Shown in pieces: positions 4,460 to 63,796 of a stretch of DNA of 64,000 nt. The position numbers were made by a program, and so were the translations under genes. Under the pieces are notes generated by a model. The model saw only the letters and a program-made list of their open reading frames with translations, was not told the origin of the DNA and did no database searches. Source of the stretch: Agelas oroides (taxonomy: Eukaryota; Porifera; Demospongiae; Agelasida; Agelasidae); contig OX422184.1 of the NCBI GenBank assembly GCA_949130485.1, forward strand, positions 5,498,655 to 5,562,654, read 5' to 3'. How positions within the stretch are numbered: the first letter of the stretch is position 1; each line of letters starts with the position of its first letter.

Positions 4460-4577
4460 AGACTCACCTGGATCCTGTTGATGCTGTTGCTGCTACTGTA
4501 ACCAATATAGATCATCCTCCAGAGACGGAGGGATGCTGCCTGACTGAAGGTAGCCAGCAAAGGCCTCAGCATAAGTG

Positions 4578-8098: not shown

Positions 8099-9038
8099 TT
8101 ATACCCTTCCCCGTGTAAACCTGTAGCTTGGAAAAGTACCCGTTGTTGCTGTCTGCCAACCCCACACCTTGATTCCACGCTTGACTAGTTTGAGGGACAT
8201 GTATTGTTTTAGACATGACCACCCCTGAAACTTGATCATCGCCTCATTCACTGCAAGTTCCTTATGAGCATTATAAAGTTCCGTGAACTTTCTGGTGATG
8301 TGGTTGATAAAAGGCCAAACCTTGCCTAGGCAGTCATGGTTTGGTGATCCCCATGTTGCCAAGGTGCTGTTGTCCACAAGATGAAGATAACGTGAGATTA
8401 GTGTTGCACCGATACCACTTTTTACCGATACTACCGATACCAATACTTCATTTCTCAGTACTGGCCGATACTAATACCGATACCGATACTGGAGATCCAT
8501 GGGCAGAGCCAATAAACCAGTTTCAACAAAGAACAAGAAATTTTCTCTCTGCAGGTAGCACAAATGGCCTTCGATTCGTCAATGGCACAAATCAAGTAGA
8601 ATTAGTTCCAAATACAACTCTTACGACTGGTATCAGTTGCAATACCAAGCGATGCCCATACGAACGATCAGTCTCAGCTAGCTAGGCATGTCAGTGCTGC
8701 ATGCCACGTGCATGCATGCTAATTAAATTTAGTATCACTAATTAGTTCCGGTACTGCCATAACTAGATCAACAGATACCGATTCAGTACCGCTACACTGA
8801 ATATCGGCGCCAGTACCGATGCCGATGCCAGTATCGGTGTAACACTACGTGAGATGTCCTGGAATCTGTCTCGAGTTATCCAGTCAGCTATTGGAGCATA
8901 CCTGAGTGTCTTGTGTTGCTGCCAGTAGTCATCTATCGAAGGAAGCACATTGATTCCCATGAGAACTGAGAATCCCAGAAACGCCTTCATATCCTCAAGA
9001 GTGATTTGTCTCCATGATTGATACTTCTCTGCTCCCAT
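8099..9038 (-). pseudogene. piggyBac-type transposase relic, split by an insertion
   Basis: The upstream part (9,038-8,848) contains SWRQITLEDMKAFLGFSVLM and PSIDDYWQQHKTLRYAPIAD, then ITRDRFQDIS, typical of the DDE_Tnp_1_7 (piggyBac) family. The downstream part (8,398-8,099) resumes with YLHLVDNS, KVWPFINHITRKFTELYN and the catalytic-region block AVNEAMIKFQGWSCLKQYM, then KRGIKVW. The two halves are separated by a 449-bp MITE. In active family members the block reads VDEAM-like with the first catalytic aspartate. Here it is asparagine, so this copy is inactive even apart from the insertion. The N-terminus, later catalytic residues and the C-terminal cysteine region are missing. Confidence 0.85.
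8399..8847. mobile_element. hAT-superfamily MITE with 8-bp target duplication
   Basis: The element starts TAGTGTTGCACCGATAC and ends with the near-perfect inverted copy GTATCGGTGTAACACTA. It is flanked by identical 8-bp direct repeats CGTGAGAT at 8,391-8,398 and 8,848-8,855. An 8-bp duplication with short TAGTGTT-type inverted termini is diagnostic of hAT transposons. It has no transposase frame, so it is non-autonomous. The interior next to both ends is a run of CCGATAC-like subrepeats. It sits inside the piggyBac relic and is therefore the younger insertion. Confidence 0.9.
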
Positions 9039-38316: not shown

Positions 38317-39447
38317 TTAGACAATCTCAAATTCGAATCGACGTTCAATCCTCCTCCTTGTGCAGTCAGGATCAACAGGCCTTATTGACAGTACATGGCT
38401 TCCAGTTGCAAGTCCACTCCTAACAAATCCCTGAGAAGATTGGCCTAATAAGTATAGGAATAGACAATAATGGTAACGTACAGATGTACTTTGTGTGTTC
38501 AATGCAAGTGTACATTACCCGGTATCATACTTTTTGATTTTAGCATGCCAAAGATTATAGTTACACTAATGCTTGCTGAACAACATTGATGGGATAAATA
38601 TATGGTCGTACTTGACTTTTCATCCAGTTCAGAGGCAGAAAATATCATCTGACTACCACACAATAATAATCACCAGCAGTTTGAGAGCCATCCTCAAGCT
38701 GATACATGTGCAGTCACATACCAAAAATGTATTTATCACTAGAGGCATCCCTATTAAATCATACCCACTAAACTTACGTACAATTCTCAGCTTGTCCATC
38801 AAGCACACATCTGAATAATGTAGCACGGTTGTCTGCACTTGGTCCAGTGCCCTGCCATTCTACTCTAACAGTGTCTCCAGTGACAGTCAAGCCATCATTA
38901 ATGGGGTGGAGCCAGCAGTCAGTGATAGTATCTGAAAGCAGTCAACAGCACACCCTAACTCATTATGTACTACTGTCAGCTGTGTACCTGGTAATAGTGT
39001 TTTAATGTCATACTTAAGTACATATACCAGTTCTGAAGATTCTGGAAATCAGGACTCTTTCTCCAGCTGGCCCAATTCCTTCTACTGTGAAGGTAAACCG
39101 GCGTCGTCGATTTGGTGGTAAGCCAGTGAATGTAACACTTCCTGATGAACCTGTGTTAGAGGAGATTTTTTAATCTGTTTACAAACTGCTCCTCCATCTA
39201 AGTTGCATCACAATAGATGAGGTTTGTACTCACCACATGTACTGGTGTATAAAGCTGTGAGAATAGCTGTACATACTGTAAAATAACATGCCTATAAAAA
39301 CCATCTTACAATCTTGCGTTTGCCTGGTGGTGACTCTGCACATCACCGACTGAAATGATGTTCCAATGGCAAGGTCTGCTGTGACAGTGTTCCCATCAAC
39401 TCTTGGACTATCATTGATCCATCTGAGCTCAAAGTCATCTTGAGAAG
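38317..39447 (-). CDS. C-terminal pair of cysteine-containing beta modules and stop codon
   Basis: Exons 39,310-39,447 and 39,028-39,150 encode one module ([52 protein letters not shown]). Exons 38,782-38,931 and 38,317-38,444 encode a second ([50 protein letters not shown]). In both, an exon junction falls inside the same cysteine codon, so the pair arose by duplication. The C-x-LDG...C-(T/S)S...GL..G.H.F pattern is common in extracellular Ig-like modules of sponges and bacteria, but I cannot name a Pfam family with certainty. The final exon ends RRFEFEIV and TAA, with no membrane anchor. Confidence 0.75.
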
Positions 39448-42400
39448 CTGCAAAATGGAATAATTGTTTTTCAGTTTGAGAGTGTAGTAACATTCTCTAT
39501 TCATGGTAGCTACTGTAATCTCAAGCAGCCATCCCGTTCCCATTTAGGTTTTCACTCTTCACACACCTGTATTACATGTCAACAAGAAAGCATTGGAGAG
39601 GCAAGGCAGTGGGACTAACAGAAGAAGGCTTGCACCAATTGGTGTGTCACTGTCCAATATAGCTGTGATAGCTACAACACTGACTGAGCAGTGCTCAAAC
39701 TGTTTTTTAATCAAAAAATGGCCCTAGTCAGCACTGACCTGAAAGACCCCAAAAAAGAAATTTCTTGGTGGGTATTTAGGCACTGGGTGATCAAGTGATC
39801 GTCAGCTGTTCCAACCATAAGGGTATCTGCTCTTTTAGAGATAAATGTGACTCGTTCCAGTTTCTACAGTAGCATATTTATACTCAGAATACGTACTTTT
39901 TACCATGTGAGAAAAGATAGTCTAGTGACCTATCTGTATTGTTATATTCCAGCTCCAGGCACACTATGATTTTTGTATGCATAGTAAAATTGCTGTGCAT
40001 ACTGAGTTAAGTCACTAGAATGAGCATGCACATGAGCACATCACCACATCACCACATTGAGTGCATATGAATGTGGCAACAAAAGTAGCAATTATGTTAC
40101 TATGGTGATTGCAAATTTATATAGTGATAACAGTTGTGATAAAATAAGGAAACCTTTGAGCCTTGTGGTTTAATTTATTTGAGGAATTCTGTCTCTGCCA
40201 CCCTCTGTTGTCTGTGAGCAAACTGGCTTGTGGAGACTTCACTTTAATTCATCGTGCAAGATGACAGACCTTATCTGTAAGGTGTGGCTTATTTGTAAGA
40301 CAGGAAATTTCCTAAGTATGAAGTTCTATAGTGGATGATAAAACGTTGCCACACACCAAAGCACATAGTAACTCCCTGTGCACAACAAATGTAATGTGTT
40401 GTCTCCCTTACAATAGATATTATGCTTGATATGTTCAATTTTATATATTGCTTATTTTCTTACGATCATCGTCCACAATAGTCACTGCTGAAGTGTTCCT
40501 GGTGATATTGATATTTGGAGATGTAGTATTGATTGCGACCACAAACTGCTCATTATCATCATCCTCCACATCCTGCAGTATCTGAACACATGCACACTGC
40601 CTTTGACTGCCCACACCAGGTATGAAGGTAAGAGTATCCACAGAAGGTAAAAAGTCTCTGCCAGCTGTTATGTGAAAGAGGAATATTTCACAGTTACTTT
40701 ACAATGGACAAGATCAGACTACTTACAGGATGGCATCTACTAAGCAAGATAGGAAGGAAAACCAATGGAATTAAGTGATGATTAAGGAACACCAATGTAC
40801 ACTTAGATACAACTTACCTAGTGCTGTTCCGTTTTGTACTGAAACTGTCACTGTGAATCCAACCTGTACATCACTGCTTGTACTAGCACAGACCAAAAGT
40901 GCAAGATCACTGTCGCTAACGTTCTCTGCAACTACATAGCTCTCTTGCTCAAGGCCAACTTGAATTGGCATAACATCAACTGCATAGGAATGTTGCTGTA
41001 GGTACTTAGCTTGCAGAAACATGACATAACCATAATACACCTCGTGCTGTATGGTACAAGACAAAGCACAGATGTCCACTCGTGCACGGGCTAAAACACT
41101 TAACTAATATACTCATGAACTATGATACACCTTGGAAAGTTTTTATTCACTTGACATACTAAAGTAACCTACGTTGACAGGTAGGTTCACTTCCAGACCA
41201 CATTCCTGTAGCTTGACAAGTGCGATTACTGTCTCCCACCAGGTTGTAGCCTGCGTTACAACTGTAGGCGGCTGTCTGTCCAAAGGTTGTTCCAGCAGTG
41301 TGACTAACCTGGCCATTGGCTGGGTCAGTCAGAGCACCACAGTCCACCACTGTCAGAAAGAGGAATAGCTACATCATGTACATTATCTGATAGTATCGTT
41401 CTCAAGCAAAACATATGCCTGGTGTGCATGCATCACAGCTACTGCATTGTAAATCTTCTGTATATGACCAAGTGCACAGAGTAGATGCCTCTTTCTATTT
41501 ACACAGATATGAATGATACCATGCAAATACTTGATCAGCTGTACACATGCACACTAGATTGTGGGTAGTAACAACATACGTTGACAGGTAGGTTCGCTTC
41601 CAGACCACATTCCTGTAGCTTGACAAGTGCGATTACTGTCTCCCACCAGGTTGTAGCCTGTGTTACAACTGTAGGCGGCTGTCTGCCCAAAGGTTGTTCC
41701 AGCAGTGTGACTAACTTGTCCATTGGCTGGGTCAGTCAGAGCACCACAGTCCACCACTGTCAGAAAGAGGAATAGCCACATCATGTACATTATCTGATAC
41801 GGTTTCAAGCAAAACATATGCCTGGTGTGCAAGCATCACAGCTACTGTCAAAACCTGTACAGCCTGACAGGTAGCTACTGCATTGTAAATCTTGTGTATA
41901 TGACCATGTACACAGAGTAAATGCCTCTTTCTATTTACACAGATATGAATGATACCATGCAAATACTTGATCAGCTGCACACATGCACACTTGATTGTGG
42001 GTAGTAACAACATACGTTGACAGGTAGGTTCGCTTCCAGACCACATTCCTGTAGCTTGACAAGTGCGATTACTGTCTCCCACCAGGTTGTAGCCTGTGTT
42101 ACAACTGTAGGCGGCTGTCTGCCCAAAGGTTGTTCCAGCAGTGTGACTAACTTGTCCATTGGCTGGGTCAGTCAGAGCACCACAGTCCACCACTGTCAGA
42201 AAGAGGAATAGCCACATCATGTACATTATCTGATACGGTTTCAAGCAAAACATATGCCTGGTGTGCAAGCATCACAGCTACTGTCAAAACCTGTACAGCC
42301 TGACAGGTAGCTACTGCATTGTAAATCTTGTGTATATGACCATGTACACAGAGTAAATGCCTCTTTCTATTTACACAGATATGAATGATACCATGCAAAT

Positions 42401-45400
42401 ACTTGATCAGCTGCACACATGCACACTTGATTGTGGGTAGTAACAACATACGTTGACAGGTAGGTTCGCTTCCAGACCACATTCCTGTAGCTTGACAAGT
42501 GCGATTACTGTCTCCCACCAGGTCGTAGCCTGTGTTACAACTGTAGGTGGCTGTCTGCCCAAAGGTTGTTCCAGCAGTGTGACTAACTTGTCCATTGGCT
42601 GGGTCAGTCAGAGCACCACAGTCCACCACTGTCAGAAAGAGGAATAGCCACATCATGTACATTATCTGATACGGTTTCAAGCAAAACATATGCCTGGTGT
42701 GCAAGCATCACAGCTACTGTCAAAACCTGTACAGCCTGACAGGTAGCTACTGCATTGTAAATCTTGTGTATATGACCATGTACACAGAGTAAATGCCTCT
42801 TTCTATTTACACAGATATGAATGATACTATGCAAATACTTGATCAGCTGCACACATGCACACTAGATTGTGGGTAGTAACAACATACGTTGACAGGTAGG
42901 TTCGCTTCCAGACCACATTCCTGTAGCTTGACAAGTGCGATTACTGTCTCCCACCAGGTTGTAACCTGCGTTACAACTGTAGGTGGCTGTCTGTCCAAAG
43001 GTTGTTCCAGCAGTGTGACTAACTTGTCCATTGGCTGGGTCAGTCAGAGCACCACAGTCCACCACTGTCAGAAAGAGGAATAGCTACATCATGTACATTA
43101 TCTGATAGTATCATTCTCAAGCAAAACATATGCCTGGTGTGCATGCATCACAGCTACTGCATTGTAAATCTTCTGTATATGACCATGTGCACAGAGTAAA
43201 TGCTTCTTTCTATTTACACAGATATGAATGATACCATGCAAATACTTGATCAGCTGCACACATGCACACTTGATTGTGGGTAGTAACAACATACGTTGAC
43301 AGGTAGGTTCACTTCCAGACCACATTCCTGTAGCTTGACAAGTGCGATTACTGTCTCCCACCAGGTCGTAGCCTGTGTTACAACTGTAGGCGGCTGTCTG
43401 CCCAACGGTTGTTCCAGCAGTGTGACTAACTTGTCCATTGGCTGGGTCAGTCAGAGCACCACAGTCCACCACTGTCAGAAAGAGGAATAGCCACATCATG
43501 TACATTATCTGTTATGGTTTCAAGCAAAACATATGCCTGGTGTGCAAGCATCACAGCTACTGTCAAAACCTGTACAGCCTGACAGGTAGCTACTGCATTG
43601 TAAATCTTATGTATATGACCATGTACACAGAGTAAATGCCTCTTTCTATTTACACAGATATGAATGATACTATGCAAATACTTGATCAGCTGCACACATG
43701 CACACTTGATTGTGGGTAGTAACAACATACGTTGACAGGTAGGTTCGCTTCCAGACCACATTCCTGTAGCTTGACAAGTGCGATTACTGTCTAGCACCAG
43801 GTCGTAGCCTGTGTTACAACTGTAGGTGGCTGTCTGTCCAAAGGTTGTTCCAGCAGTGTGACTAACTTGGCCATTGGCTGGGTCAGTCAGAGCACCACAG
43901 TCCACCACTGTCAGAAAGAGGAATAGCTACATCATGTACATTATCTGATAGTATCGTTCTCAAGCAAAACATATGCCTGGTGTGCATGCATCACAGCTAC
44001 TGCATTGTAAATCTTCTGTATATGACCATGTGCACAGAGTAAATGCTTCTTTCTATTTACACAGATATGAATGATAACATGCAAATACTTGATCAGCTGC
44101 ACACATGCACACTTGATTGTGGGTAGTAACAACATACGTTGACAGGTAGGTTCGCTTCCAGACCACATTCCTGTAGCTTGACAAGTGCGATTACTGTCTC
44201 CCACCAGGTCGTAGCCTGTGTTACAACTGTAGGTGGCTGTCTCTCCAAAGGTTGTTCCAGCAGTGTGACTAACTTGTCCATTGGCTGGGTCAGTCAGAGC
44301 ACCACAGTCTACCACTGTCAGAAAGAGGAATCACTACATCATGTACATTATCTGATAGTATCGTTCTCAAGCAAAACATATATATGCCTGGTGTGCATGC
44401 ATCACAGCTACTGCATTGTAAATCTTCTGTACATGACCATGTGCACAGAGTAGATGCCTCTTTCTATTTACACAGATATGAATGATACCATGCAAATACT
44501 TGATCAGCTGCCACATGCACACTTGATTGTCGGTAGTAACAACATACGTTGACAGGTAGGTTCACTTCCAGACCACATTCCTGTAGCTTGACAAGTGCGA
44601 TTAATGTCTCCCACCAGGTCGTAGCCTGTGTTACAACTGTAGGCGGCTGTCTGTCCAAAGGTTGTTCCAGCAGTGTGACTAACCTGGCCATTGGCTGGGT
44701 CAGTCAGAGCACCACAGTCCACCAGGACCACCACTGTCAGAAAGAGGAATAGTTACATCATGTACATTATCTGATAGTATCGTTCTCAGGCAAAACATAT
44801 ATATGCCTGGTGTGCATGCATCACAGCTACTGCATTGTAAATCTGTATATGACCATGTGCACAGAGTAGAAGCCTCTTTCTATTTACACAGATATGAATG
44901 ATACCATGCAAATACTTGATCAGCTGCACACATGCACACTAGATTGTGGGTAGTAACAACATACGTTGACAGGTAGGTTCACTTCCAGACCACATTCCTG
45001 TAGCTTGACAAGTGCGATTACTGTCTCCCACCAGGTCGTAGCCTGTGTTACAACTGTAGGTGGCTGTCTGTCCAAAGGTTGTTCCAGCAGTGTGACTAAC
45101 TTGTCCATTGGCTGGGTCAGTCAGAGCACCACAGTCCACCACTGTCAGAAAGAGGAATCACTACATCATGTACATTATCTGATAGTATCGTTCTCAAGCA
45201 AAACATATATATGCCTGGTGTGCATGGATCACAGCTACTGCATTGTAAATCTTGTGTATATGACCATGTGCACAGAGTAGATGCCTCTTTCTATTTACAC
45301 AGATATGAATGATACCATGCAAATACTTGATCAGCTGCACACATGCACACTTGATTGTGGGTAGAAACAACATACGTTGACAGGTAGGTTCGCTTCCAGA

Positions 45401-48400
45401 CCACATTCCTGTAGCTTGACAAGTGCGATTACTGTCTCCCACCAGGTCGTAGCCTGTGTTACAACTGTAGGCGGCTGTCTGTCCAAAGGTTGTTCCAGCA
45501 GTGTGACTAACTTGTCCATTGGCTGGGTCAGTCAGAGCACCACAGTCCACCACTGTCAGAAAGAGGAATAGCTACATCATGTACATTATCTGATAGTATC
45601 GTTCTCAAGCAAAACATATGCCTAGTGTGCATGCATCACAGCTACTACATTGTAAATCTTCTGTATATGACCATGTGCACAGAGAAAATGCTTCTTTCTA
45701 TTTACACAGACATGAATGATACCATGCAAATACTTGATCAGCTGTACACATGCACACTTGATTGTGGGTAGTAACAACATACGTTGACAGGTAGGTTCAC
45801 TTCCAGACCACATTCCTGTAGCTTGACAAGTGCGATTACTGTCTCCCACCAGGTCGTAGCCTGTGTTACAACTGTAGGTGGCTGTCTGTCCAAAGGTTGT
45901 TCCAGCAGTGTGACTAACTTGTCCATTGGCTGGGTCAGTCAGAGCACCACAGTCCACCACTGTCAGAAAGAGGAATAGCTACATCATGCATCTGATAGTA
46001 TCGTTCTCAAGCAAAACATATGCCTGGTGTGCATGCATCACAGCTACTGCATTGTAAATCTTCTGTATATGACCATGTACACAGAGTAAATGCCTCTTTC
46101 TATTTACACAGATATGAATGATACCATTCAAATACTTCATCAGCTGTACACATGCACACTTGATTGTGGGTAGTAACAACATACGTTGACAGGTAGGTTC
46201 GCTTCCAGACCACATTCCTGTAGCTTGACAAGTGCGATTACTGTCTCCCACCAGGTCGTAGCCTGTGTTACAACTGTAGGCGGCTGTCTGTCCAAAGGTT
46301 GTTCCAGCAGTGTGACTAACTTGGCCATTGGCTGGGTCAGTCAGAGCACCACAGTCCACCACTGTCAGAAAGAGGAATCGCTACATCATGTACATTATCT
46401 GATAGTATCGTTCTCAAGCAAAACATATATATGCCTGGTGTGCATGCATCACAGCTACTGCATTGTAAATCTGTATATGACCATGTGCACAGAGTAGATG
46501 CCTCTTTCTATTTACACAGATATGAATGATACCATGCAAATACTTGATCAGCTGTACACATGCACACTAGATTGTGGGTAGTAACAACATACGTTGACAG
46601 GTAGGTTCACTTCCAGACCACATTCCTGTAGCTTGACAAGTGCGATTACTGTCTCCCACCAGGATATAGCCTGTGTTACAACTGTAGGCGGCTGTCTGTC
46701 CAAAGGTTGTTCCAGCAGTGTGACTAACTTGTCCATTGGCTGGGTCAGTCAGAGCACCACAGTCCACCACTGTCAGAAAGAGGAATCGCTACATCATGTA
46801 CATTATCTGATAGTATCGTTCTCAGGCAAAACATATATATGCCTGGTGTGCATGCATCACAGCTACTGCATTGTAAATCTGTATATGACCATGTGCACAG
46901 AGTATATGCCTCTTTCTATTTACAACGATATGAATGATACCATGCAAATACTTGATCAGCTGTACACATGCACACTAGATTGTGGGTAGTAACAACATAC
47001 GTTGACAGGTAGGTTCACTTCCAGACCACATTCCTGTAGCTTGACAAGTGCGATTACTGTCTCCCACCAGGATATAGCCTGTGTTACAACTGTAGGCGGC
47101 TGTCTGTCCAAAGGTTGTTCCAGCAGTGTGACTAACTTGTCCATTGGCTGGGTCAGTCAGAGCACCACAGTCCACCACTGTCAGAAAGAGGAATCACTAC
47201 ATCATGTACATTATCTGATAGTATCGTTCTCAAGCAAAACATATATATGCCTGGTGTGCATGCATCACAGCTACTGCATTGTAAACCTTCTGTATATGAC
47301 AATGTGCACAGAGTAGATGCCTCTTTCTATTTACACAGATATGAATGATACCATGCAAATACTTGATCAGCTGCACACATGCACACTAGATTGTGGGTAG
47401 TAACAACATACGTTGACAGGTAGGTTCGCTTCCAGACCACATTCCTGTAGCTTGACAAGTGCGATTACTGTCTCCCACCAGGTCGTAGCCTGTGTTACAA
47501 CTGTAGGTGGCTGTCTGTCCAAAGGTTGTTCCAGCAGTGTGACTAACTTGGCCATTGGCTGTGTCAGTTAGAGCACCACAGTCCACCACTGTCAGAAAGA
47601 GGAATAGCTACATCATGTACATTATCTGATAGTATCGTTCTAAAGCAAAACATATGCCTGGTGTGCATGCATTACAGCTACTGTCAAAACCTGCACAGCC
47701 TGACAGGTAGCTACTGCATTGTAAATCTTGTGTATATGACCATGTGCACAGAGTAGATGCGTCTTTCTATTTACACAGATATGAATGATACCATGCAAAT
47801 ACTGGATCAGCTGCACACATGCACACTTGATTGTCGGTAGTAACAACATACGTTGACAGGTAGGTTCACTTCCAGACCACATTCCTGTAGCTTGACAAGT
47901 GCGATTACTGTCTCCCACCAGGTTGTAGCCTGTGTTACAACTGTAGGCGGCTGTCTGTCCAAAGGTTGTTCCAGCAGTGTGACTAACCTGGCCATTGGCT
48001 GGGTCAGTCAGAGCACCACAGTCCACCAGGACCACCACTGTCAGAAAGAGGAATAGTTACATCATGTACATTATCTGATAGTATCGTTCTCAGGCAAAAC
48101 ATATATATGCCTGGTGTGCATGCATCACAGCTACTGCATTGTAAATCTGTATATGACCATGTGCACAGAGTAGATGCCTCTTTCTATTTACACAGATATG
48201 AATGATACCATGCAAATACTTGATCAGCTGCACACATGCACACTAGATTGTGGGTAGTAACAACATACGTTGACAGGTAGGTTCACTTCCAGACCACATT
48301 CCTGTAGCTTGACAAGTGCGATTACTGTCTCCCACCAGGTTATAGCCTGTGTTACAACTGTAGGCGGCTGTCTGTCCAAAGGTTGTTCCAGCAGTGTGAC

Positions 48401-51400: not shown

Positions 51401-54400
51401 AAGCAAAACATATATATGCCTGGTGTGCATGCATCACAGCTACTGCATTGTAAACCTTCTGTATATGACAATGTGCACAGAGTAGATGCCTCTTTCTATT
51501 TACACAGATATGAATGATACCATGCAAATACTTGATCAGCTGCACACATGCACACTAGATTGTGGGTAGTAACAACATACGTTGACAGGTAGGTTCGCTT
51601 CCAGACCACATTCCTGTAGCTTGACAAGTGCGATTACTGTCTCCCACCAGGTCGTAGCCTGTGTTACAACTGTAGGTGGCTGTCTGTCCAAAGGTTGTTC
51701 CAGCAGTGTGACTAACTTGGCCATTGGCTGTGTCAGTTAGAGCACCACAGTCCACCACTGTCAGAAAGAGGAATAGCTACATCATGTACATTATCTGATA
51801 GTATCGTTCTAAAGCAAAACATATGCCTGGTGTGCATGCATTACAGCTACTGTCAAAACCTGCACAGCCTGACAGGTAGCTACTGCATTGTAAATCTTGT
51901 GTATATGACCATGTGCACAGAGTAGATGCGTCTTTCTATTTACACAGATATGAATGATACCATGCAAATACTGGATCAGCTGCACACATGCACACTTGAT
52001 TGTCGGTAGTAACAACATACGTTGACAGGTAGGTTCACTTCCAGACCACATTCCTGTAGCTTGACAAGTGCGATTACTGTCTCCCACCAGGTTGTAGCCT
52101 GTGTTACAACTGTAGGCGGCTGTCTGTCCAAAGGTTGTTCCAGCAGTGTGACTAACCTGGCCATTGGCTGGGTCAGTCAGAGCACCACAGTCCACCAGGA
52201 CCACCACTGTCAGAAAGAGGAATAGTTACATCATGTACATTATCTGATAGTATCGTTCTCAGGCAAAACATATATATGCCTGGTGTGCATGCATCACAGC
52301 TACTGCATTGTAAATCTGTATATGACCATGTGCACAGAGTAGATGCCTCTTTCTATTTACACAGATATGAATGATACCATGCAAATACTTGATCAGCTGC
52401 ACACATGCACACTAGATTGTGGGTAGTAACAACATACGTTGACAGGTAGGTTCACTTCCAGACCACATTCCTGTAGCTTGACAAGTGCGATTACTGTCTC
52501 CCACCAGGTTATAGCCTGTGTTACAACTGTAGGCGGCTGTCTGTCCAAAGGTTGTTCCAGCAGTGTGACTAACTTGTCCATTGGCTGGGTCAGTCAGAGC
52601 ACCACAGTCCACCACTGTCAGAAAGAGGAATCACTACATCATGTACATTATCTGATAGTATCGTTCTCAAGCAAAACACATATATGCCTGGTGTGCATGC
52701 ATCACAGCTACTGCATTGTAAATCTTGTGTATATGACAATGTGCACAGAGTAGATGCCTCTTTCTATTTACACAGATATAAATGATACCATGCAAATACT
52801 TGATCAGCTGCACACATGCACACTTGATTGTGGGTAGTAACAACATACGTTGACAGGTAGGTTCGCTTCCAGACCACATTCCTGTAGCTTGACAAGTGCG
52901 ATTACTGTCTCCCACCAGGTCGTAGCCTGTGTTACAACTGTAGGTGGCTGTCTGTCCAAAGGTTGTTCCAGCAGTGTGACTAACTTGGCCATTGGCTGTG
53001 TCAGTTAGAGCACCACAGTCCACCACTGTCAGAAAGAGGAATAGCTACATCATGTACATTATCTGATAGTATCGTTCTAAAGCAAAACATATGCCTGGTG
53101 TGCATGCATTACAGCTACTGTCAAAACCTGCACAGCCTGACAGGTAGCTACTGCATTGTAAATCTTGTGTATATGACCATGTGCACAGAGTAGATGCGTC
53201 TTTCTATTTACACAGATATGAATGATACCATGCAAATACTGGATCAGCTGCACACATGCACACTTGATTGTCGGTAGTAACAACATACGTTGACAGGTAG
53301 GTTCACTTCCAGACCACATTCCTGTGGCTTGACAAGTGCGATTACTGTCTCCCACCAGGTTGTAGCCTGTGTTACAACTGTAGGCGGCTGTCTGTCCAAA
53401 GGTTGTTCCAGCAGTGTGACTAACCTGGCCATTGGCTGGGTCAGTCAGAGCACCACAGTCCACCAGGACCACCACTGTCAGAAAGAGGAATAGTTACATC
53501 ATGTACATTATCTGATAGTATCGTTCTCAGGCAAAACATATATATGCCTGGTGTGCATGCATCACAGCTACTGCATTGTAAATCTGTATATGACCATGTG
53601 CACAGAGTAGATGCCTCTTTCTATTTACACAGATATGAATGATACCATGCAAATACTTGATCAGCTGCACACATGCACACTAGATTGTGGGTAGTAACAA
53701 CATACGTTGACAGGTAGGTTCACTTCCAGACCACATTCCTGTAGCTTGACAAGTGCGATTACTGTCTCCCACCAGGTTATAGCCTGTGTTACAACTGTAG
53801 GCGGCTGTCTGTCCAAAGGTTGTTCCAGCAGTGTGACTAACTTGTCCATTGGCTGGGTCAGTCAGAGCACCACAGTCCACCACTGTCAGAAAGAGGAATC
53901 ACTACATCATGTACATTATCTGATAGTATCGTTCTCAAGCAAAACACATATATGCCTGGTGTGCATGCATCACAGCTACTGCATTGTAAATCTTGTGTAT
54001 ATGACAATGTGCACAGAGTAGATGCCTCTTTCTATTTACACAGATATAAATGATACCATGCAAATACTTGATCAGCTGCACACATGCACACTTGATTGTG
54101 GGTAGTAACAACATACGTTGACAGGTAGGTTCGCTTCCAGACCACATTCCTGTAGCTTGACAAGTGCGATTACTGTCTCCCACCAGGTCGTAGCCTGCGT
54201 TACAACTGTAGGCGGCTGTCTGTCCAAAGGTTGTTCCAGCAGTGTGACTAACTTGGCCATTGGCTGGGTCAGTCAGAGCACCACAGTCCACCACTGTCAG
54301 AAAGAGGAATAGCTACATCATGTACATTATCTGATAGTATCGTTCTCAAGCAAAACATATGCCTGGTGTGCATGCATCACAGCTACTGCATTGTAAATCT

Positions 54401-57400
54401 TCTGTATATGACCATGTACACAGAGTAAATGCTTCTTTCTATTTACACAGATATGAATGATACCATGCAAATACTTGATCAGCTGTACATATGCACACTA
54501 GATTGTGGGTAGTAACAACATACGTTGACAGGTAGGTTCACTTCCAGACCACATTCCTGTAGCTTGACAAGTGCGATTACTGTCTCCCACCAGGTTGTAG
54601 CCTGTGTTACAACTGTAGGTGGCTGTCTGTCCAAAGGTTGTTCCAGCAGTGTGACTAACTTGGCCATTGGCTGGGTCAGTCAGAGCACCACAGTCCACCA
54701 CTGTCAGAAAGAGGAATCGCTACATCATGTACATTATCTGATAGTATCATTCTCAGGCAAAACATATATATGCCTTGTGTGCATGCATCACAGCTACTGC
54801 ATTGTAAATCTGTATATGACCATGTGCACAGAGTAGATGCCTCTTTCTATTTACACAGATATGAATGATACCATGCAAATACTTGATCAGCTGCACACAT
54901 GCACACTAGATTGTGGGTAGTAACAACATACGTTGACAGGTAGGTTCACTTCCAGACCACATTCCTGTAGCTTGACAAGTGCGATTACTGTCTCCCACCA
55001 GGTTATAGCCTGTGTTACAACTGTAGGCGGCTGTCTGTCCAAAGGTTGTTCCAGCAGTGTGACTAACTTGTCCATTGGCTGGGTCAGTCAGAGCACCACA
55101 GTCCACCACTGTCAGAAAGAGGAATCACTACATCATGTACATTATCTGATAGTATCGTTCTCAAGCAAAACACATATATGCCTGGTGTGCATGCATCACA
55201 GCTACTGCATTGTAAATCTTGTGTATATGACAATGTGCACAGAGTAGATGCCTCTTTCTATTTACACAGATATGAATGATACCATGCAAATACTTGATCA
55301 GCTGCACACATGCACACTTGATTGTGGGTAGTAACAACATACGTTGACAGGTAGGTTCGCTTCCAGACCACATTCCTGTAGCTTGACAAGTGCGATTACT
55401 GTCTCCCACCAGCTTATAGCCTGCGTTACAACTGTAGGTGGCTGTCTGTCCAAAGGTTGTTCCAGCAGTGTGACTAACTTGTCCATTGGCTGGGTCAGTC
55501 AGAGCACCACAGTCCACCACTGTCAGAAAGAGGAATAGCTACATCATGTACATTATCTGATAGTATCGTTCTCAAGCAAAACATATGCCTAGTGTGCATG
55601 CATCACAGCTACTGCATTGCAAATCTTCTGTATATGACCATGTACACAGAGTAAATGCTTCTTTCTATTTACACAGATATGAATGATACCATGCAAATAC
55701 TTGATCAGCTGTACACATGCACACTAGATTGTGGGTAGTAACAACATACGTTGACAGGTAGGTTCACTTCCAGACCACATTCCTGTAGCTTGACAAGTGC
55801 GATTACTGTCTCCCACCAGGTTGTAGCCTGCGTTACAACTGTAGGCGGCTGTCTGTCCAAAGGTTGTTCCAGCAGTGTGACTAACCTGGCCATTGGCTGG
55901 GTCAGTCAGAGCACCACAGTCCACCACTGTCAGAAAGAGGAATAGTTACATCATGTACATTATCTGATAGTATCGTTCTCAAGCAAAACATATGCCTGGT
56001 GTGCATGCATCACAGCTACTGCATTGTAAATCTTGTGTATATGACCATGTGCACAGAGTAAATGCTTCTTTCTATTTACACAGACATGAATGATACCATG
56101 CAAATACTTGATCAGCTGTACACATGCACACTTGATTGTGGGTAGTAACAACATACGTTGACAGGTAGGTTCGCTTCCAGACCACATTCCTGTAGCTTGA
56201 CAAGTGCGATTACTGTCTCCCACCAGGTCGTAGCCTGTGTTACAACTGTAGGTGGCTGTCTGTCCAAAGGTTGTTCCAGCAGTGTGACTAACTTGTCCAT
56301 TGGCTGGGTCAGTCAGAGCACCACAGTCCACCACTGTCAGAAAGAGGAATAGTTACATCATGTACATTATCTGATAGTATCGTTCTCAAGCAAAACATAT
56401 GCCTGGTGTGCATGCATCACAGCTACTGCATTGTAAATCTTCTGTATATGACCATGTGCACAAAGTAGATGCCTCTTTCTATTTACACAGATATGAATGA
56501 TACCATGCAAATACTTGATCAGCTGCACACATGCACACTTGATTGTGGGTAGTAACAACATACATTGACAGGTAGGTTCACTTCCAGACCACATTCCTGT
56601 AGCTTGACAAGTGCGATTACTGTCTCCCACCAGGTTGTAGCCTGTGTTACAACTGTAGGCGGCTGTCTGTCCAAATGTTGTTCCAGCAGTGTGACTAACT
56701 TGTCCATTGGCTGGGTCAGTCAGAGTGCCACAGTCCACCACTGTATTAGGAACTAAGAGAGCAAGTGACAGAAATGTATGTAAGAGCTAGCAGTTTTATT
56801 TAACAGACATTTCAGGCCTGAACTGCATGAGGTTGTATAAACTGGGTGTACCTGCATTTGTTTGAAGTCCATAACATGCTGCAGGTTCTGCAGAAGACAA
56901 TGTTAAAATGACATGTACGTAGATGCACATTCATACATGTAGGTACATACATGGCAAGAAAGATATACAACAGTTGATGTACCTTGATCTGGGCAGAGGC
57001 TGAGGTCATCCTGGATCAAAAAGAAAATGATTTCAATGCTTAGCACAAACTTGACAAATGCATTTTGCATTGCATAAAGTATAGTTGCTACTATTATATA
57101 TGTGTGCAACATTATGTATGTTATTGTATAAGAGGGAATTCTGAATGTTTGTACAATGTATGCATGGAGCTAAATTGTTCGAACACAAGAGCCATAGAAA
57201 ATTTGCACCACAGTTAGAAAGAGGCGACTGGCTATATAGGCACATTTTAGCAGCAGCTTCTAAATCATCAGTAACTCTGCTATAAAGTTTATATATAACA
57301 AAAAAAAACAAACAAAAAAAACACATGGCCTCATTCTCAGGCCTTTACCTCAACTCTTGTCACTTCTGAAATGACACGAGTGGGGTGCCCGATAACAAAG

Positions 57401-60400
57401 CTAGGATATATACTACCATTGAGTAATCCTGTGCAGTGGGTGACTGTGCACAATATCCAGCCTGCACTGATTTTTAACAGGGAGGGTTGATGATGATTAT
57501 GCATACACACGTACAAAGCAGAGTTGTGCACATGATGGGCAGATGAGAGATCCCTCATAGTCAGATCCATTCACAGTGATATTCATGATCAGCTGCATGT
57601 GGAGAATTGAGAAGTAACTTGAGAAGTAACTTGAGAAGTAACTTGAGAATTTCTTTTATAGCACATGCAAAGTGTGCTACATGCAGCTTCTGTATGTAAC
57701 CACATGCAGGTCTGCCAACTCTCATGAATGTATCATGAGTCTCACAATTTCAGTGCAAGCCTCACAGTCTCACAGCCACACATGCAGGTAGTCCACTCTC
57801 TGGGAACATCTGAATTATGAATGCGAGTGCGTCCAGGAGCGTAAAATGCAGTCTGGGAACGAAACTACATGGACAGTTGCGGAATTTTGCAAAGAGAGCT
57901 GTTTCATGCGATGTACCCAGTTTCTGCAAGCGAAACCAGAGATGGCTGAGTTTCTGTGAAGGGTATGGCTTGTGGGACTCAATTCCATTGGAACCACACT
58001 CACCTAGCTTACAGTGTGTACCTAGTAGACACATACCAGTCTCAAGGTTTTTGAACTGAAAACATTTGGCAGTCCTGTAACCAATATAGCCACTAGCCAT
58101 GCAAGTCTTTTGGCAGTCCTGTAACCAATATAGCCACTAGCCAAGTCTTATTTTATATGATCGCCTCTTTAGCTCGTGAAATAAAGTGACAAAAATTAGA
58201 CTGTATAATACCTCTTCTCCCTCGCAGTTACAGCGAAACCTCAGTCCCAACACCTCAATCTCCACCCCCGTGGTAGCAGAGCAGGAATACTGAGGACAGA
58301 GAGATCAGAGTCTGTATGTAATACGTATCACAAATATGTACTAACTATGCATACATTGTTAATTACAATGATACTTATGCTCTCCCAAAGCTTGCATGCC
58401 CAGGTTGATGCTACTCCTATTGCTTATATAGCTGCCAATCCGATTGAGTTTACTGATAACTTTACCAAATCTCAAGTCTTGATAAAACAGATCACGTTTT
58501 CACTTGCACTGTTTTCTTTGTCTTAACACAAAACAAAATCACAACCCGAAATGCTCACAGAAACTACAGTTTAGTACTGCATATTTACTGTTAGAGTTTA
58601 GTCTAAAGGCATTATTAGAATACTTATCACAATGGGTAATAATTAGTACTACTTTATCACAAGGCTTTCCCTTCTGGAATTGCTGTAGGATTCAGAATGG
58701 TGTAGCTGGCTAGTGAAGGGAAGCTTGTTGGTGAACCAAAGTTTCATTAGGCTTTGTTGTCCAAAGGATATTGTTAACAAGATGACTTGTTTTAGCTGCA
58801 CTGTTCAAATAACAATTTTCTGGTCAATTTTAGTGTATAAAGACGTTGATAACAGGATGCAGGTAGGTGTATATACACAACCACACCTGGTAGCAACCAC
58901 CTCCATACACTTCTGAGGTAGAACTGGCTTCATTTGTTGTCAGAAACCATTGTCTTCCATGCTCTACACAGCGAGATCCAGGACCGTAGGTTTCAGCACG
59001 AATATTTGGTACAGGTTGGTCTGCTGCCTGATTGCACACCTGAGAGATACCTGTTTGGCGCTAAAACAGAACAAAAATATGTCAGGAGATCATCTATAAA
59101 ATTGCACTATAAGTTTAGCTGATAGTCTGATAGTATCTAGTCAGGCTACTGCAAGATAAAATCTGGGAGTTTTCGAGGGACAAGGCTAGATTACCAGTGT
59201 GAGTTTGAAACAGACCTCCCCCATTTTTTGTTCTTCAGTTTGGCTCAATGTAACATACGGAAGTGAGATCAAGGCTAGCCAACTTCTAAAATTAGGTCTC
59301 AGTCAAATTAACAGCAATTAACAAGTACCCATATGGTAGATTTGATTTATGCAAGTTTTGTGTACTTTGGCTCTTATAATATATAAGTATCACCACAGTA
59401 CAAAGCTATACAAGAAAATATGTTGCCGTCTGTATTGTTACAAGTGTGCAGCATGAGTAACAATGCCAACGGCAACAAACGAGTGGTACTTTTTTCCTGG
59501 CTTGGTACTATGGTGATAATGATTTTATCATACAAACTTTTGATTTCATTGCACGATCAGACGTAGTGCATGTGACTTGTAGTACCTGATACAGATTCTC
59601 ACGTGACTTGTAGTACTGATAGAGCTATCCCAAAGTATTTTTCAAAGCTCTAATTAGCCCTATTGGTCAATATATTATACACAACTATATGCACATATGT
59701 GCCGTTGCTCAGCAACACCCTAAATTAACCCTAACCCAACCAACCAGATTATAGCTTTGAAAACACTTTGATACTGTAATACTAATACGGTTCTCGTGTG
59801 ACTTGTAGCAAAAAATACAGCTACATGCAGCAGCAGGGCTTCCCCGTTGACTCCATACATTTGATGTATGATAATAATATCATACGTCTAACTCACACTA
59901 ATGTATGGGAGTCAATGTGGAAGCCTTGCAGTTGCACGCAGTTTATAAAAAGCCGTATTTTTTAATACAAGTCACGCGAGAATCCATATCAGTACTACAA
60001 GTCACATGCATGTGTCTGAACGTGCAATGGTTCATATGATAAAATCACTATCACCATAGTACCAAGCTATACCGGAAAAAATATCACTCATTTGTTGCCG
60101 TTGGCATTGTTACTCATGCTGCACACTCGTAACAATACAGATGGCAACAAACTCGTGATATTTTCCGGTATAGCTTTGTACTATGGTGATACTTATATAT
60201 TCATAACGCTATTACTAAGGCATCTTGCCATAACATGAAACTATAAAAGACTAACTTATCGTGTGGATACTGCATGCAGATACTAGTAATGTTATAGCTC
60301 TGCTTATTCATGTTACACACATTGATGGTATGAGGTGAATGTGATTAACTGGCTATTGCTCCAAGCTGCCAGTGCTCTGACCTAGCCTCGTTCCCAGGCT

Positions 60401-63400
60401 CTCCCCTCACCCCGGGCCCGATGAAAAATAAAAATGGAGGGGCGAGGGGAGAGCCTGGGAATGAGGCTAGCTCTGACCATTTCCCAGGCGACCACCTTAC
60501 AATCCTCTTTATATATCACACGGGGGATACTGAGCAGCAAATAATTGTATCTACATTTAGTGAATATGACCAATGATGTTAATGTACTCATACGTACGTC
60601 ACTAGGAAGATGAAGGCCACAATAGTCAGGTATTGTCACACTACCGCCAACTCGAGGAGCAACAACAGCATCAAAATTTGGCCCAGAGTTGAAATACTAG
60701 AGAGCAAAATGAAAAACAGTTAGCTCAGGAGTATGTTGAGTCCCATGTGACCATACAAAGAACCATTTAGACTACACATGGGAAAAAATAATTATCTTAT
60801 GCAGTATAATAAATTAAAATGCCAAGTAACTGCTCCATGCAGATCTGTTGATAGCCAGTATTCCTTGCAGAGTTTACTAATACAGTTGAGTTGTATATAC
60901 ACACACCTGAAATTCTGCCGGTATAGGTGTTGATCCATAGTCAACCAAGTTGCAAACTGAAACGCTCTCTCTGTCAATGGTGCATCCAAACCGTGCAGGA
61001 TTTTGTACCAAGAAATTGCAGTATGGGGCCAAGGTTGTTCCTCTGCAGTAAGTAATGCATACAGCTAAACTTAACATTGCTCGACGCAAATATAAGCTAC
61101 TATACAGTTGCCAAGTTCTGTCATTTAATGTGTTTACAAGGAGCTGCTGTAATAATTATACTTCATGAATCACAAGCAAATAAGGTCTTCATGCCACTAA
61201 CCTTTGTTGCTGTGTTTGAATCCATTCTCCACAACTTCCCTGAGGAAGTCTGCAGCCAGAATTCTGCCCCCATGCCAGTGGCTCTGCTTGAGTATAGTTG
61301 GCTTGGTACCATCTAGATTGGAGATGAGAATTCATGTATATACAAAAGAGTGGTCAGTAACCTTGAGTACTACGGAGCCAGAAACAGCAATGAAGGTCAA
61401 ACTTAAACACTCTGTGCAGGGCACACAAACTAACCCTGTGTCTTCAAGTAGACCAAGTGTCATTCTGGAAAAGCGAATATTGAACAGAAGTACTCCAGTC
61501 ATTCCTTCATTCTGCAGAAGAATGCCCAATGCTAAAAATCACCCTTGTATTTCATATTCAAAGTTTTGTAACATTACCCCAAGAATTCTCTGTTCAAAGT
61601 GTGCAGAACTAGTTCCTCCTCCTCCTTGGTTTTCAAGCTCTACACCATCAAGGGAAGAGCAGTTGTAATGAATCCTTGCTTGTTCCTATAAAAAGAGTTA
61701 AAATACTGAAACAAAAAATACTTCAATGATTCATCTTAATGACCAGCTTGGCATCAGATTATGCTGGAGCTGTACACTAATGCTATGATTTTTGTTTCTT
61801 CTCTAGCACAGTCACCAAACTTTGGTTGCAATGTCCTATTTAACTCCTGCGTGCAAGTCATGTTAAAATTTCCAGTTTAGAAGAAGTAAGCCACACCCCC
61901 AAGATGCCCACAGAACCTAGTGGTACACATTTTCTTTCACATCTTAGGGTGTAATAATTCAATTAAGTCTTGGGATGTAAAAATAGCTCACCACAACATT
62001 TGGAGTTACAAACTGCTGAACGTCATGATCAATTATTCCATTGCGGGTCTGCCAGTCTTGGTATGTGGTTGTTCTAACGGTTGTCTCACTGGCAATAAAA
62101 CTGCAAGCAACAAAAATGAACTTATGTTATCCAGCACAACATGTCATACTCGCCCTAAGAACAGGATTTTAGATGGTTACTTCGGTGTATCTGAAATGAC
62201 TATCTTTTCCATTCTCACAGGAACCAATTACATAATTATCAAATTAATTGTGTTTGCTTAGATTATCACAGAGATTGCAAAGCTTGTTAACTATGTTTTG
62301 CAGACTTCAATATCTGTGTTCAGCCACTGGCCTAACAAAATTTGGTTGCCATGGTAATGGACACTAAGTAACAACCGACTGGTAGTTTACTGGTTAGTGA
62401 AATCCATACTTCCTTTTCTCGTTTTTTTTTTTAAATAAATAAAGACAAAGCTGTAATTGCAAATATTCTAAAAGTATATCGTGTGCGTGCAGCGAATTCG
62501 CGAAATTATTTGAACGAAATCTTCCAATATTTCTATTCGCGAAAATTTGGACCCTCGAAAATTTAGCGCTATAGCTACAGTAATAGACAGTTGTGGCCAC
62601 ATCATAGGATATCTACATATGTGTATAGGGACCCATTCTAGTGGTACTCCATGAGGTTTGATGGCATAAAGGTAAGGCAATGCTTAAGTTTGCTCACCCA
62701 GATCCATCACTTGGTGGGAATCCAAATTGGTCTCTTGGTGTACGAGGATTTCCTTCTTCGTCACGAAAGAAAGCATACACACTTGGAGAAAAACCCTACA
62801 AATGAAAGTGAAAAATTGAAATAGGTTTGCTTACTTGTATACTGTATAATTAAGGGTAGCTGGACCATTGATATTGTCTTTAGTATAAATGAGGGCGTTC
62901 TTTATGCAGGTTATTGATCTACATTTGGGAAACTATACTATGCAGTTTAACTGTGAAGCAATACAGCAGCAAGAGATACAGTAGTAAGAGATTCCATTGT
63001 GCACATTGCTTCACCGGTAATTAAATTACAGTGCATCACAGTTTACCAAACTATAAGGACAATAATGTATGTTGCTTATGCCAACTTGTGAAATATGTTC
63101 TTCAGATCAAGTGTTGCTCTTACCAGTGCATGAATAACTTCATGTATTCCTATTCTGATGTTGTCCTCATCTGAACGTGCTTGAAACTGATCTGGACAGA
63201 AATTAATGCCTCCTGCAATAGGACTAAGAAAAGAGTAATTGTAGCTATGTTTATAATCTTTCCATATCCGTATTGTCTTCTGTGGTTTACTCTAAATACA
63301 GCAACTTGATAATAGAGCAACAAGCTACTGAGTGCCTAGCTACCAAATACCTACTGCAGACTCTATGCACTAGTCAGTTTCTGTTTGTTGATAGTTGATG

Positions 63401-63796
63401 CCTTCCATGGTCAGTGCAAGCCATCATCATATTTCCTGATATGCACATACCACTTATAACTTCAATTTAATATGCAGGTGGTTGGATTTCATAGTTTAGA
63501 GTCTCTTTGTGGTGTGGAAAGATTAAATGAAGAGTATTTTCTCTGTTGCAGTTAGTATGTAATTTAGCTATCTGCTTGTTTAGTGTCAACACAAAGCTAC
63601 CATGTAATATTTAGTCTCACCGATCCAATGTGGCTTCCAGCTCGCAGACATTCGCAAAGGCTAGAACTCCATTATTTGTACATGAACCTCCTCGATTAGC
63701 TCCTACGTACAGTATGTAGTCTGTGTTATTCACTCCTGGACCATCTGAGCCAATTGTTACACAAGTAGCTGAACTACCGCTGCACTGAACACAACG
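38317..63796 (-). CDS. Secreted leishmanolysin-like (M8) protease with 38 sushi domains and Calx-beta; 5' end outside the window
   Basis: Exons with matching phases run from 63,796 down to a TAA at 38,317-38,319. In order they encode an M8 zinc metallopeptidase (14 exons to 56,852), 38 CCP/sushi exons (56,740-41,173), a Calx-beta domain (40,979-40,464) and two cysteine-containing beta modules (39,447-38,317). From the first CCP exon to the last spliced junction every boundary is phase 1, so any set of internal exons can be joined without losing frame. If all are used the visible part is about 3,000 residues. There is no transmembrane helix or GPI-like tail, so it is probably secreted. Signal peptide and propeptide must lie beyond the right edge. 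CCP and Calx-beta modules usually bind proteins or carbohydrates outside the cell. The substrate is unknown. Confidence 0.88.
40464..40979 (-). CDS. Calx-beta domain exons
   Basis: Exons 40,818-40,979 and 40,464-40,664 follow the last sushi exon in phase 1. They read [20 protein letters not shown], then [20 protein letters not shown], ending [14 protein letters not shown] and SAVTIVDDD. The pattern, with acidic clusters that bind calcium and a closing VxIxDDD strand, is that of Calx-beta modules of Na/Ca exchangers, integrin beta-4 and matrix proteins. One complete module is present, so calcium-dependent stiffening or adhesion is plausible but inferred. Confidence 0.88.
41173..56740 (-). CDS. 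Array of 38 sushi/CCP exons
   Basis: Each exon is 177 bp (59 residues): [20 protein letters not shown] at the start, then QTAxYSCNxGYx[23 protein letters not shown]. The four cysteines and the tryptophan define a CCP module, and NRT is an N-glycosylation site. Exons begin after CTGACAG and nearly all end CAAC/GTATGTTG, phase 1 at both sides. Examples are 56,564-56,740 (first), 41,580-41,756 and 41,173-41,349 (last). Five exons starting at 44,733, 48,037, 49,305, 52,206 and 53,474 are 186 bp, with an extra VVL. Introns of about 220-260 bp are as conserved as the exons. Differences between modules cluster at DP/DT, A/T before YSCN, T/A after it, and N/D/I/K after GY. No module contains a stop. 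Confidence 0.93.
41173..56740. repeat. ~410-bp tandem repeat with 1,268-bp and 4,169-bp higher-order periods
   Basis: Exon plus intron repeats 38 times at spacings of 402-440 bp. A three-unit cycle of 1,268 bp appears at 47,589, 48,857 and 50,125. A larger block of about 4 kb (roughly 46,560-50,500) recurs as 50,730-54,670, with corresponding exons exactly 4,169 bp apart. Longer units carry an extra TACAGCCTGACAGGTAGCTA-like intron segment. The left-hand units (41.5-44 kb) are more diverged. Confidence 0.9.
56852..63796 (-). CDS. M8 (leishmanolysin) metallopeptidase part of the gene
   Basis: Exons are 63,621-63,796, 63,124-63,223, 62,698-62,795, 61,992-62,100, 61,578-61,685, 61,435-61,511, 61,202-61,312, 60,907-61,042, 60,598-60,696, 58,887-59,039, 58,212-58,289, 57,515-57,592, 56,983-57,010 and 56,852-56,887, and phases agree at every junction. 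Landmarks in order are [25 protein letters not shown], the zinc motif HEVIHALGF (HExxHxxG), [20 protein letters not shown], the third-ligand histidine in SSAHFEQR, the Met-turn [46 protein letters not shown] and ICPSCAQLC. All zinc and Met-turn residues of metzincin family M8 are kept, so the enzyme should be active. Cysteines of the C-terminal leishmanolysin region are present. Confidence 0.93.
57327..57349 (+). repeat. Diverged end of the TTCCCAGGC MITE family
   Basis: GGCCTCATTCTCAGGCCTTT resembles one arm of the hairpin at 60,383-60,470. The other arm is not found nearby. Confidence 0.35.
57609..57649 (+). repeat. 12-bp minisatellite
   Basis: GAGAAGTAACTT is repeated three times in perfect tandem plus a partial copy, in an intron of the protease part. 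Confidence 0.85.
58066..58143 (+). repeat. 34-bp tandem duplication
   Basis: The sequence starting TTGGCAGTCCTGTAACCAAT at 58,066 recurs exactly at 58,110, a 44-bp offset. It lies in an intron. Confidence 0.85.
59390..60199. mobile_element. Long nested palindromic element in a protease intron
   Basis: The left end TATATAAGTATCACCACAGT and the right end GGTGATACTTATATA are inverted copies. The arms stay similar for about 150 bp and more weakly to about 59,640, sharing GTTGCCGTCTGTATTGTTAC-like and GTGCAGCATGAGTAACAATG blocks. Each arm is itself palindromic around GTAACAAT. Inside lies another inverted pair at 59,838-59,925 (CTTCCCCGTTGACTCCATAC). A composite of two foldback elements, one inside the other, explains this best. 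Confidence 0.65.
60383..60470. mobile_element. Complete short hairpin MITE with target duplication
   Basis: Arms of 27 bp starting CTAGCCTCGTTCCCAGGCTC are inverted with one mismatch. CTCTGACC occurs directly before (60,375-60,382) and after (60,471-60,478), giving a 7-8 bp duplication of hAT type. The element is only about 88 bp. Related ends are at 11,879, 23,715 and 57,327. Confidence 0.8.
61686..61991. other. Protease intron without recognisable content
   Basis: The introns 61,686-61,991, 62,101-62,697, 62,796-63,123 and 63,224-63,620 contain no repeat, RNA or additional exon I could support. Beyond 63,796 the sequence to 64,000 should be an intron leading to earlier protease exons. A TTTCAG near the right edge could be an acceptor but is not convincing. 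Confidence 0.5.

Follow-up and report, generated by a model that had tools for sequence, protein, structure and literature searches.

Proteases in which non-catalytic modules direct the catalytic domain are well represented by C1r, C1s and MASP, by tolloid and by the ADAMTS enzymes, with C1r and MASP using CCP (sushi) modules. In the M8 metalloproteases, Leishmania GP63 is a GPI-anchored parasite surface enzyme. The animal leishmanolysin-like peptidases, or invadolysins, have an M8 domain like that of the gene described here (35-49% identity among the best 120 of 225 matches), but the members listed are mostly 500-800 amino acids long and mostly match PF01457 alone, without a module array. M8 domains joined to EGF modules are already present in public records from Halichondria panicea, from sea urchin and under the name scpid4015, whose prefix we take to denote Sycon. 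The last of these (P0176), together with Lytechinus variegatus LOC121429156 and its kin (P0177-P0180), combines M8 with long sets of extracellular modules, as does the present gene, but the arms are built of EGF and laminin G modules, with no Sushi match in P0176 or P0177.

The gene considered here lies in a 64,000-nucleotide stretch of DNA from the sponge Agelas oroides, analysed as a whole and called the window. The window is part of contig C2 of the host genome (259 Mb in 141 contigs), from which upstream exons and paralogs were also taken. A phase-consistent frame of 58 exons runs on the minus strand from 63796 to 38317, where it ends in a stop, and is made up as follows.

56852..63796, minus strand: most of the M8 domain and a short linker, 14 exons, about residues 159-627 of the 3184-aa prediction (exon borders, phases, Pfam, phmmer)
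41173..56740, minus strand: CCP/sushi array, 38 exons (33 of 177 nt, 5 of 186 nt), introns of 225-263 nt, phase 1-1 (Pfam Sushi)
40818..40979, minus strand: Calx-beta, first exon (exon borders, Pfam)
40464..40664, minus strand: Calx-beta, second exon (exon borders, Pfam)
39310..39447, minus strand: tail module 1, first exon (exon borders; aligned to the P0002 tail)
39028..39150, minus strand: tail module 1, second exon (exon borders; aligned to the P0002 tail)
38782..38931, minus strand: tail module 2, first exon, with the VEWQGTGP motif (exon borders; aligned to the P0002 tail)
38317..38444, minus strand: tail module 2, last exon, with stop TAA (exon borders)

Joined, these exons (14 on the M8 side, 38 CCP and 6 tail) amount to 9081 nt, or 3026 amino acids, with one stop, which is terminal. 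Five more 5' exons lie outside the window on C2, with a predicted ATG at C2:5566618 (equivalent to window position 67964), so that the predicted gene spans C2:5536971-5566618, and bring the full prediction to 3184 amino acids, or roughly 344 kDa before any glycosylation. The intron borders inspected are GT-AG, and exons from the fourteenth through the last but one have phase 1 at both ends; this was read directly for exons 1-16 and for the final 7, and the CCP exons in the middle all have lengths divisible by three. The predicted N-terminus carries a hydrophobic stretch resembling a signal peptide and an RGKR site, and no membrane or lipid anchor is seen at the C-terminus, all of these judged by eye. 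Among 49 N-glycosylation sequons in the 3184-aa prediction, 38 are NRT, occurring once per CCP. A 12-bp tandem repeat (3.6 copies, window 57607-57649) sits in an intron of the M8 part, and the intron that follows the third 5' exon contains a minisatellite, recognised by eye, whose units measure some 36 bp (locus L009, roughly 2340-2910).

Elsewhere in the window, the minus strand holds Helitron-type pieces in separate frames at 3900-4463 and 6014-6625 (PIF1-like helicase, 7e-8; Helitron_like_N, 4e-30) and a DDE_Tnp_1_7 transposase fragment at 8099-8470 (4e-12), which is presumably of piggyBac type. On the plus strand, the frame at 24018-24395 matches AAA_16 below cut-off, and Pfam gives nothing at E<=0.01 for a frame of 437 aa at 33219-34532; the two are possibly parts of one large ATP-binding protein.

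The catalytic head of the predicted protein is that of an M8 enzyme. A Pfam run on a shortened join that included 2 of the 38 CCPs returned Peptidase_M8 (PF01457) at 1.2e-56 and 193 bits against a cut-off of 21, rising to 194.5 bits with the N-terminal exons, as well as Sushi (PF00084) at 8.4e-26 and 90.6 bits for the two copies and Calx-beta (PF03160) at 1.4e-12 and 48.1 bits against a cut-off of 27. The zinc site HEVIHALGF, an instance of the HExxHxxG zinc motif, is split by an intron between exons 63223-63124 and 62795-62698; AHFEQR, with the third histidine ligand, lies in exon 61685-61578, and NEGMTGV, with the methionine of the Met-turn, in exon 61511-61435. Motifs corresponding to all three recur in the stitched paralogs B-E described below. 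By profile and motifs, the product is predicted to be an M8 zinc metalloprotease. The only solved structure with a sequence match to the M8 part at E<=0.001 is Leishmania leishmanolysin (1lml_A, 6e-28, phmmer), the GP63 enzyme, which shares the family and the zinc-site region by sequence but has no arm.

The two last modules of the tail match nothing in Pfam or NCBIfam at E<=1, and a comparison with the PDB gave one match, at E 1.1. Tail module 2, of the VEWQGTGP type, has 37 matches in the genome, some of them beyond the M8 paralogs (on C6, C1, C11, C21, C9 and others), which raises the possibility of an undescribed extracellular module of wider occurrence.

The anatomy reported in a first-pass annotation, made from the letters of the window alone, is confirmed: the three M8 motifs are intact, and M8, 38 CCPs, Calx-beta and two further modules follow one another in unbroken phase in the exon join and in Pfam. 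The array itself was counted directly. Searching with an exact motif gave 36 and then 37 CCP exons, a relaxed pattern gave 38, and a CCP protein search also found 38 in the window. All are stop-free, all have four cysteines, and all have lengths that are multiples of three between phase-1 borders, as annotated; the donor is GTATGT and the acceptor TGACAG in 37 of 38 exons each. The five 186-nt exons (for example, 44733-44548) begin with 9 additional in-frame nt, which add VVL to the protein. Across 703 pairs, the last 177 nt of the exons are 94.4-100% identical, with a mean of 97.5%, so that the earlier description of the copies as near-identical holds. The array introns are 93.3-100% identical, with a mean of 96.4%. 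Only 16 protein types occur among 37 CCP exons, the variation being confined to few codons.

Likeness between units of about 410 bp (one exon and one intron) is highest at lags 3 and 10, and a block of ten units is present twice in tandem:

50672..54673, minus strand: 10-unit block (4002 bp), first copy, with a tandem copy 4169 bp along at 2 mismatches
46503..50504, minus strand: 10-unit block, second copy (coordinates by subtracting 4169)

The lag peaks and the near-identical block argue for repeated unequal crossing-over. Since the introns are almost as alike as the exons and the block copies differ by only 2 mismatches, the length of the array is probably unstable, and the count of 38 holds for a single assembly. 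Homogenisation of this kind is not peculiar to the M8 gene, since the genome contains further homogenised arrays of CCPs, including one of 20 CCPs at about 241 bp spacing at C4:9995123-9999881 (L029), in which neighbours of equal length are on average 97.9% identical, and one of 6 copies at 326 bp spacing on C12. A 1762-aa open frame on C12 was set aside as mostly a run of N. Genome-wide, 944 candidates yielded 150 scored CCP matches, and 38 of these fall in the window; the window CCP protein is up to 88% identical to CCPs of other fetched loci, compared with about 80% to paralog B. The CCP exon with its intron was also considered as a mobile cassette, for which there is no support: in a search that skips very common words, all 37 genome matches to the array intron fell inside its own array. 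In P0001 (664 aa, from an ENA contig), a CCP array is read in one frame through apparent introns that start RMLLLS, comparable to RMLLLP in the window intron.

The same genome holds relatives in which the middle of the protein is built differently. The M8 query gave 47 exon matches, which include four paralogs on contigs C2 and C1; their domain lists are assembled from matches and open frames between stops rather than full gene models, with CCP counts by tblastn at E<=1e-3. Paralog B (about C2:5586155 to 5570186), the directly upstream neighbour on the same strand, has M8, 2 CCPs, Calx-beta and the tail modules, its Calx-beta being 88% and 91% identical to that of the window gene in its two exons. 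On C1, paralog C has M8, NIDO, 9 CCPs and tail; paralog D has M8, an LDL-receptor class B propeller, an EGF-type module, NIDO, 2 CCPs, Calx-beta and tail; and paralog E has M8, SRCR with LDLa, and a weak tail match (tblastn E=0.60, otherwise by frame reading). Pfam matches in the paralogs, each on one frame, were to NIDO (5e-25 in C and 7e-24 in D), Ldl_recept_b (7e-21), FXa_inhibition (1e-10), SRCR (8e-16) and Ldl_recept_a (1e-5). The Calx-beta of D, at 4e-5, is below the Pfam cut-off, and C and E yielded no match to this domain. A Cys-rich module follows M8 in all four; by eye it is TB-like, and Pfam gives sub-threshold matches, to TB in D and E and to TSR in B. In each of B, C, D and E, M8 lies upstream and the tail (weak in E) downstream, all on a single strand and separated by differing modules. 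Two copies on C19 have M8 only, with no CCP, EGF, Calx-beta or tail match at E<=1e-3 in the 20 kb examined, and contigs C5 and C21 contribute three weak single-exon M8 matches.

Outside Agelas, the closest named proteins among the best 120 of 225 matches are from H. panicea, followed by Amphimedon. The H. panicea protein named in public annotation as LOC135344730 isoform X3 (P0002, 1348 aa) has the plan of the window gene, with an M8 head (49% identity over 480 aa), a homogeneous tandem arm and a tail, but its arm consists of 10 EGF_3 stretches rather than CCPs. Its C-terminal region aligns with the Calx-beta and two tail modules of the window gene at 40% identity over 295 aa (E 2.4e-60); the alignment spans Calx-beta, although Pfam reports none in P0002 at E<=0.01. 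Two further H. panicea proteins of the same clade, P0004 (Kunitz) and P0005 (EGF), carry other modules and have no tail match to the window gene, so that not every member has the tail. By BLASTP, P0004 contains a stretch resembling a CCP (39% over 74 aa), for which Pfam reports nothing at E<=0.01.

In an M8 tree of 26 rows, rooted for drawing only, the window gene and its paralogs B, C, D and E form one group (100/99) and the three H. panicea proteins another (100/100); the two join in a group of eight (100/99), outside which lie the C19 copies with P0003 (92/88). P0176-P0180 also fall outside, with P0176 on a long branch and unsure in its place. The window gene thus belongs with the arm-bearing M8 proteins of sponges both by its head, which groups with P0002, P0004 and P0005, and by its tail modules, which are common to the window gene, P0002, B, C and D and weakly to E. 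The expectation that the domain order would recur elsewhere was borne out in part: the head-arm-tail order is found in four paralogs (with a weak tail in E) and in one H. panicea protein, but the modules of the arm differ.

These comparisons favor, with a probability of roughly 0.7, a reading of the locus as one gene of a sponge M8 clade that swaps its arms, in which the CCP arm has been amplified recently and locally and a secreted enzyme is positioned by that arm. It is very improbable that the architecture is an artefact, in which neighboring genes are joined by a chance frame or the array owes its length to misassembly. A 4.0 kb block duplicated with 2 mismatches is the kind of copy that an assembler could create or lose. 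Between neighboring units (lag 1), however, there are on average 14.4 changes, so that the bulk of the array is not copy error. Likewise, the introns at the two joints, 111 nt between the last M8-side exon and the first CCP exon and 193 nt between the last CCP exon and the Calx-beta exon, leave little room for a gene border. With unbroken phase and the same head-arm-tail order in the paralogs and P0002, two genes are an unlikely reading. The comparative case for one gene is strong, and the single predicted gene with M8 and a long homogeneous CCP array that the first-pass annotation described is supported.

A more serious, though still unlikely, alternative is that the array is a selfish or neutral tandem repeat, with unequal exchange having inflated an arm that needs few CCPs and the extra copies being without function. 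Introns homogenised like the exons are in keeping with such an origin, as are paralogs B and D, with 2 CCPs each, and the other homogenised arrays of the genome, such as the 20 copies on C4. Such an account sits less easily with the integrity of the coding sequence, as all 38 exons are intact and none has an indel that breaks the frame, compared with six gap classes in the introns. Nucleotide diversity at codon positions 1, 2 and 3 is 0.030, 0.004 and 0.042, compared with 0.037 in introns. Of 24 exon variants, 23 could be classed, as 12 nonsynonymous, 11 synonymous and 0 nonsense; neutrality would predict 73.5% of variants to change the protein, so that synonymous change is in excess (P 0.023) in what is a modest test that counts each variant once. 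This mildly suggests that the CCP modules are translated. Improbable, too, is a length-variable recognition protein, for which alternative splicing would skip varying numbers of CCP exons to produce arms of many lengths. With phase 1-1 throughout the CCP exons and in the tail as far as the penultimate exon, any CCP exon could be left out without loss of frame, so that the freely skippable exons of the first-pass annotation are a prediction from phase; the splice sites are nearly identical, and H. panicea family members are annotated as isoforms X2 or X3, by name only. Identical splice sites, however, offer no cue for choosing among exons, and 16 protein types among 37 exons with few variable codons would be a poor source of recognition diversity. 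The relatives point instead to exon shuffling and unequal exchange acting on the DNA of the arm, and not to a splicing switch.

The preferred reading, a single arm-swapping M8 gene, can be set out as a proposed sequence of events. The product would be an M8 zinc metalloprotease with a putative signal peptide and RGKR processing site, a 38-CCP arm, Calx-beta and two C-terminal modules. Shuffling of phase-1 exons would have placed different extracellular modules (CCP, EGF, NIDO, LDLR propeller, SRCR/LDLa) between a fixed head and tail, and the CCP arm would then have been amplified, locally and recently, as unequal crossing-over duplicated the roughly 410-bp unit in blocks that include ones of 3 and 10 units. 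The enzyme would be secreted, with the arm serving as a long, glycosylated, repetitive spacer and a multivalent binding surface that would place the protease in matrix, on cells or on substrates. The sequence itself shows the predicted gene anatomy, the family and the homogenised expansion of the array, while secretion, activity and the targeting role of the arm are all predictions of this reading. The proteins P0003 and P0006 end in hydrophobic stretches resembling, by eye, lipid-anchor signals, so that the arm may stand in place of a membrane anchor that it replaced.

Targeting of the enzyme by its arm is more likely than the role in self/non-self recognition raised as a possibility in the first-pass annotation, which is unsupported: few residues vary among the copies, and a single Calx-beta is insufficient for an aggregation factor. 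Sponge aggregation factors have several tandem Calx-beta domains and a wreath domain; the window gene, with its one Calx-beta stretch, is not placed among them. By analogy, the enzyme would work like ADAMTS, tolloid and C1r/MASP without belonging to any of these families; their catalytic domains are unrelated, and they have 2 CCPs rather than 38.

Searches of wider scope bear on how far this architecture has been seen before. None of 16 hits among 7258 candidates in a search for long M8 fusions, all of about 913-2905 aa and below the length of the window protein, carried PF00084. Querying with the tail region gave 52 hits from 5020 candidates, mostly Calx-beta proteins, of which those with a named organism are bacterial; P0002 was missed, so that the lack of further hits carries little weight. 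Six pattern matches in viral contigs were not confirmed. In the open-access literature, we found no long uniform CCP arm on an M8 enzyme, no such head-arm-tail family and nothing on concerted evolution of sushi domains. Passages in two papers describe sponge SRCR proteins combined with other modules (PMC4704026, PMC10855680), and astacin is among those modules in the passages of the second (PMC10855680). Judged from the sequences compared, the feature that is the window gene's own within the sponge M8 family is its recent local CCP expansion.

A further and rather doubtful extension of these results is that the arm is a fast-evolving slot in which modules are swapped or amplified, so that individuals would differ in the reach or valency of the protease, possibly as part of an individuality or matrix-recognition system. 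More generally, the locus points to a protease family, in an early-branching animal group, whose catalytic head and C-terminal tail are retained as the module between them changes, and in which exon shuffling, concerted evolution of domain arrays and variation in array length are directly testable by long reads. If array length varies between individuals, it would provide a natural experiment on the non-catalytic arms of extracellular proteases.
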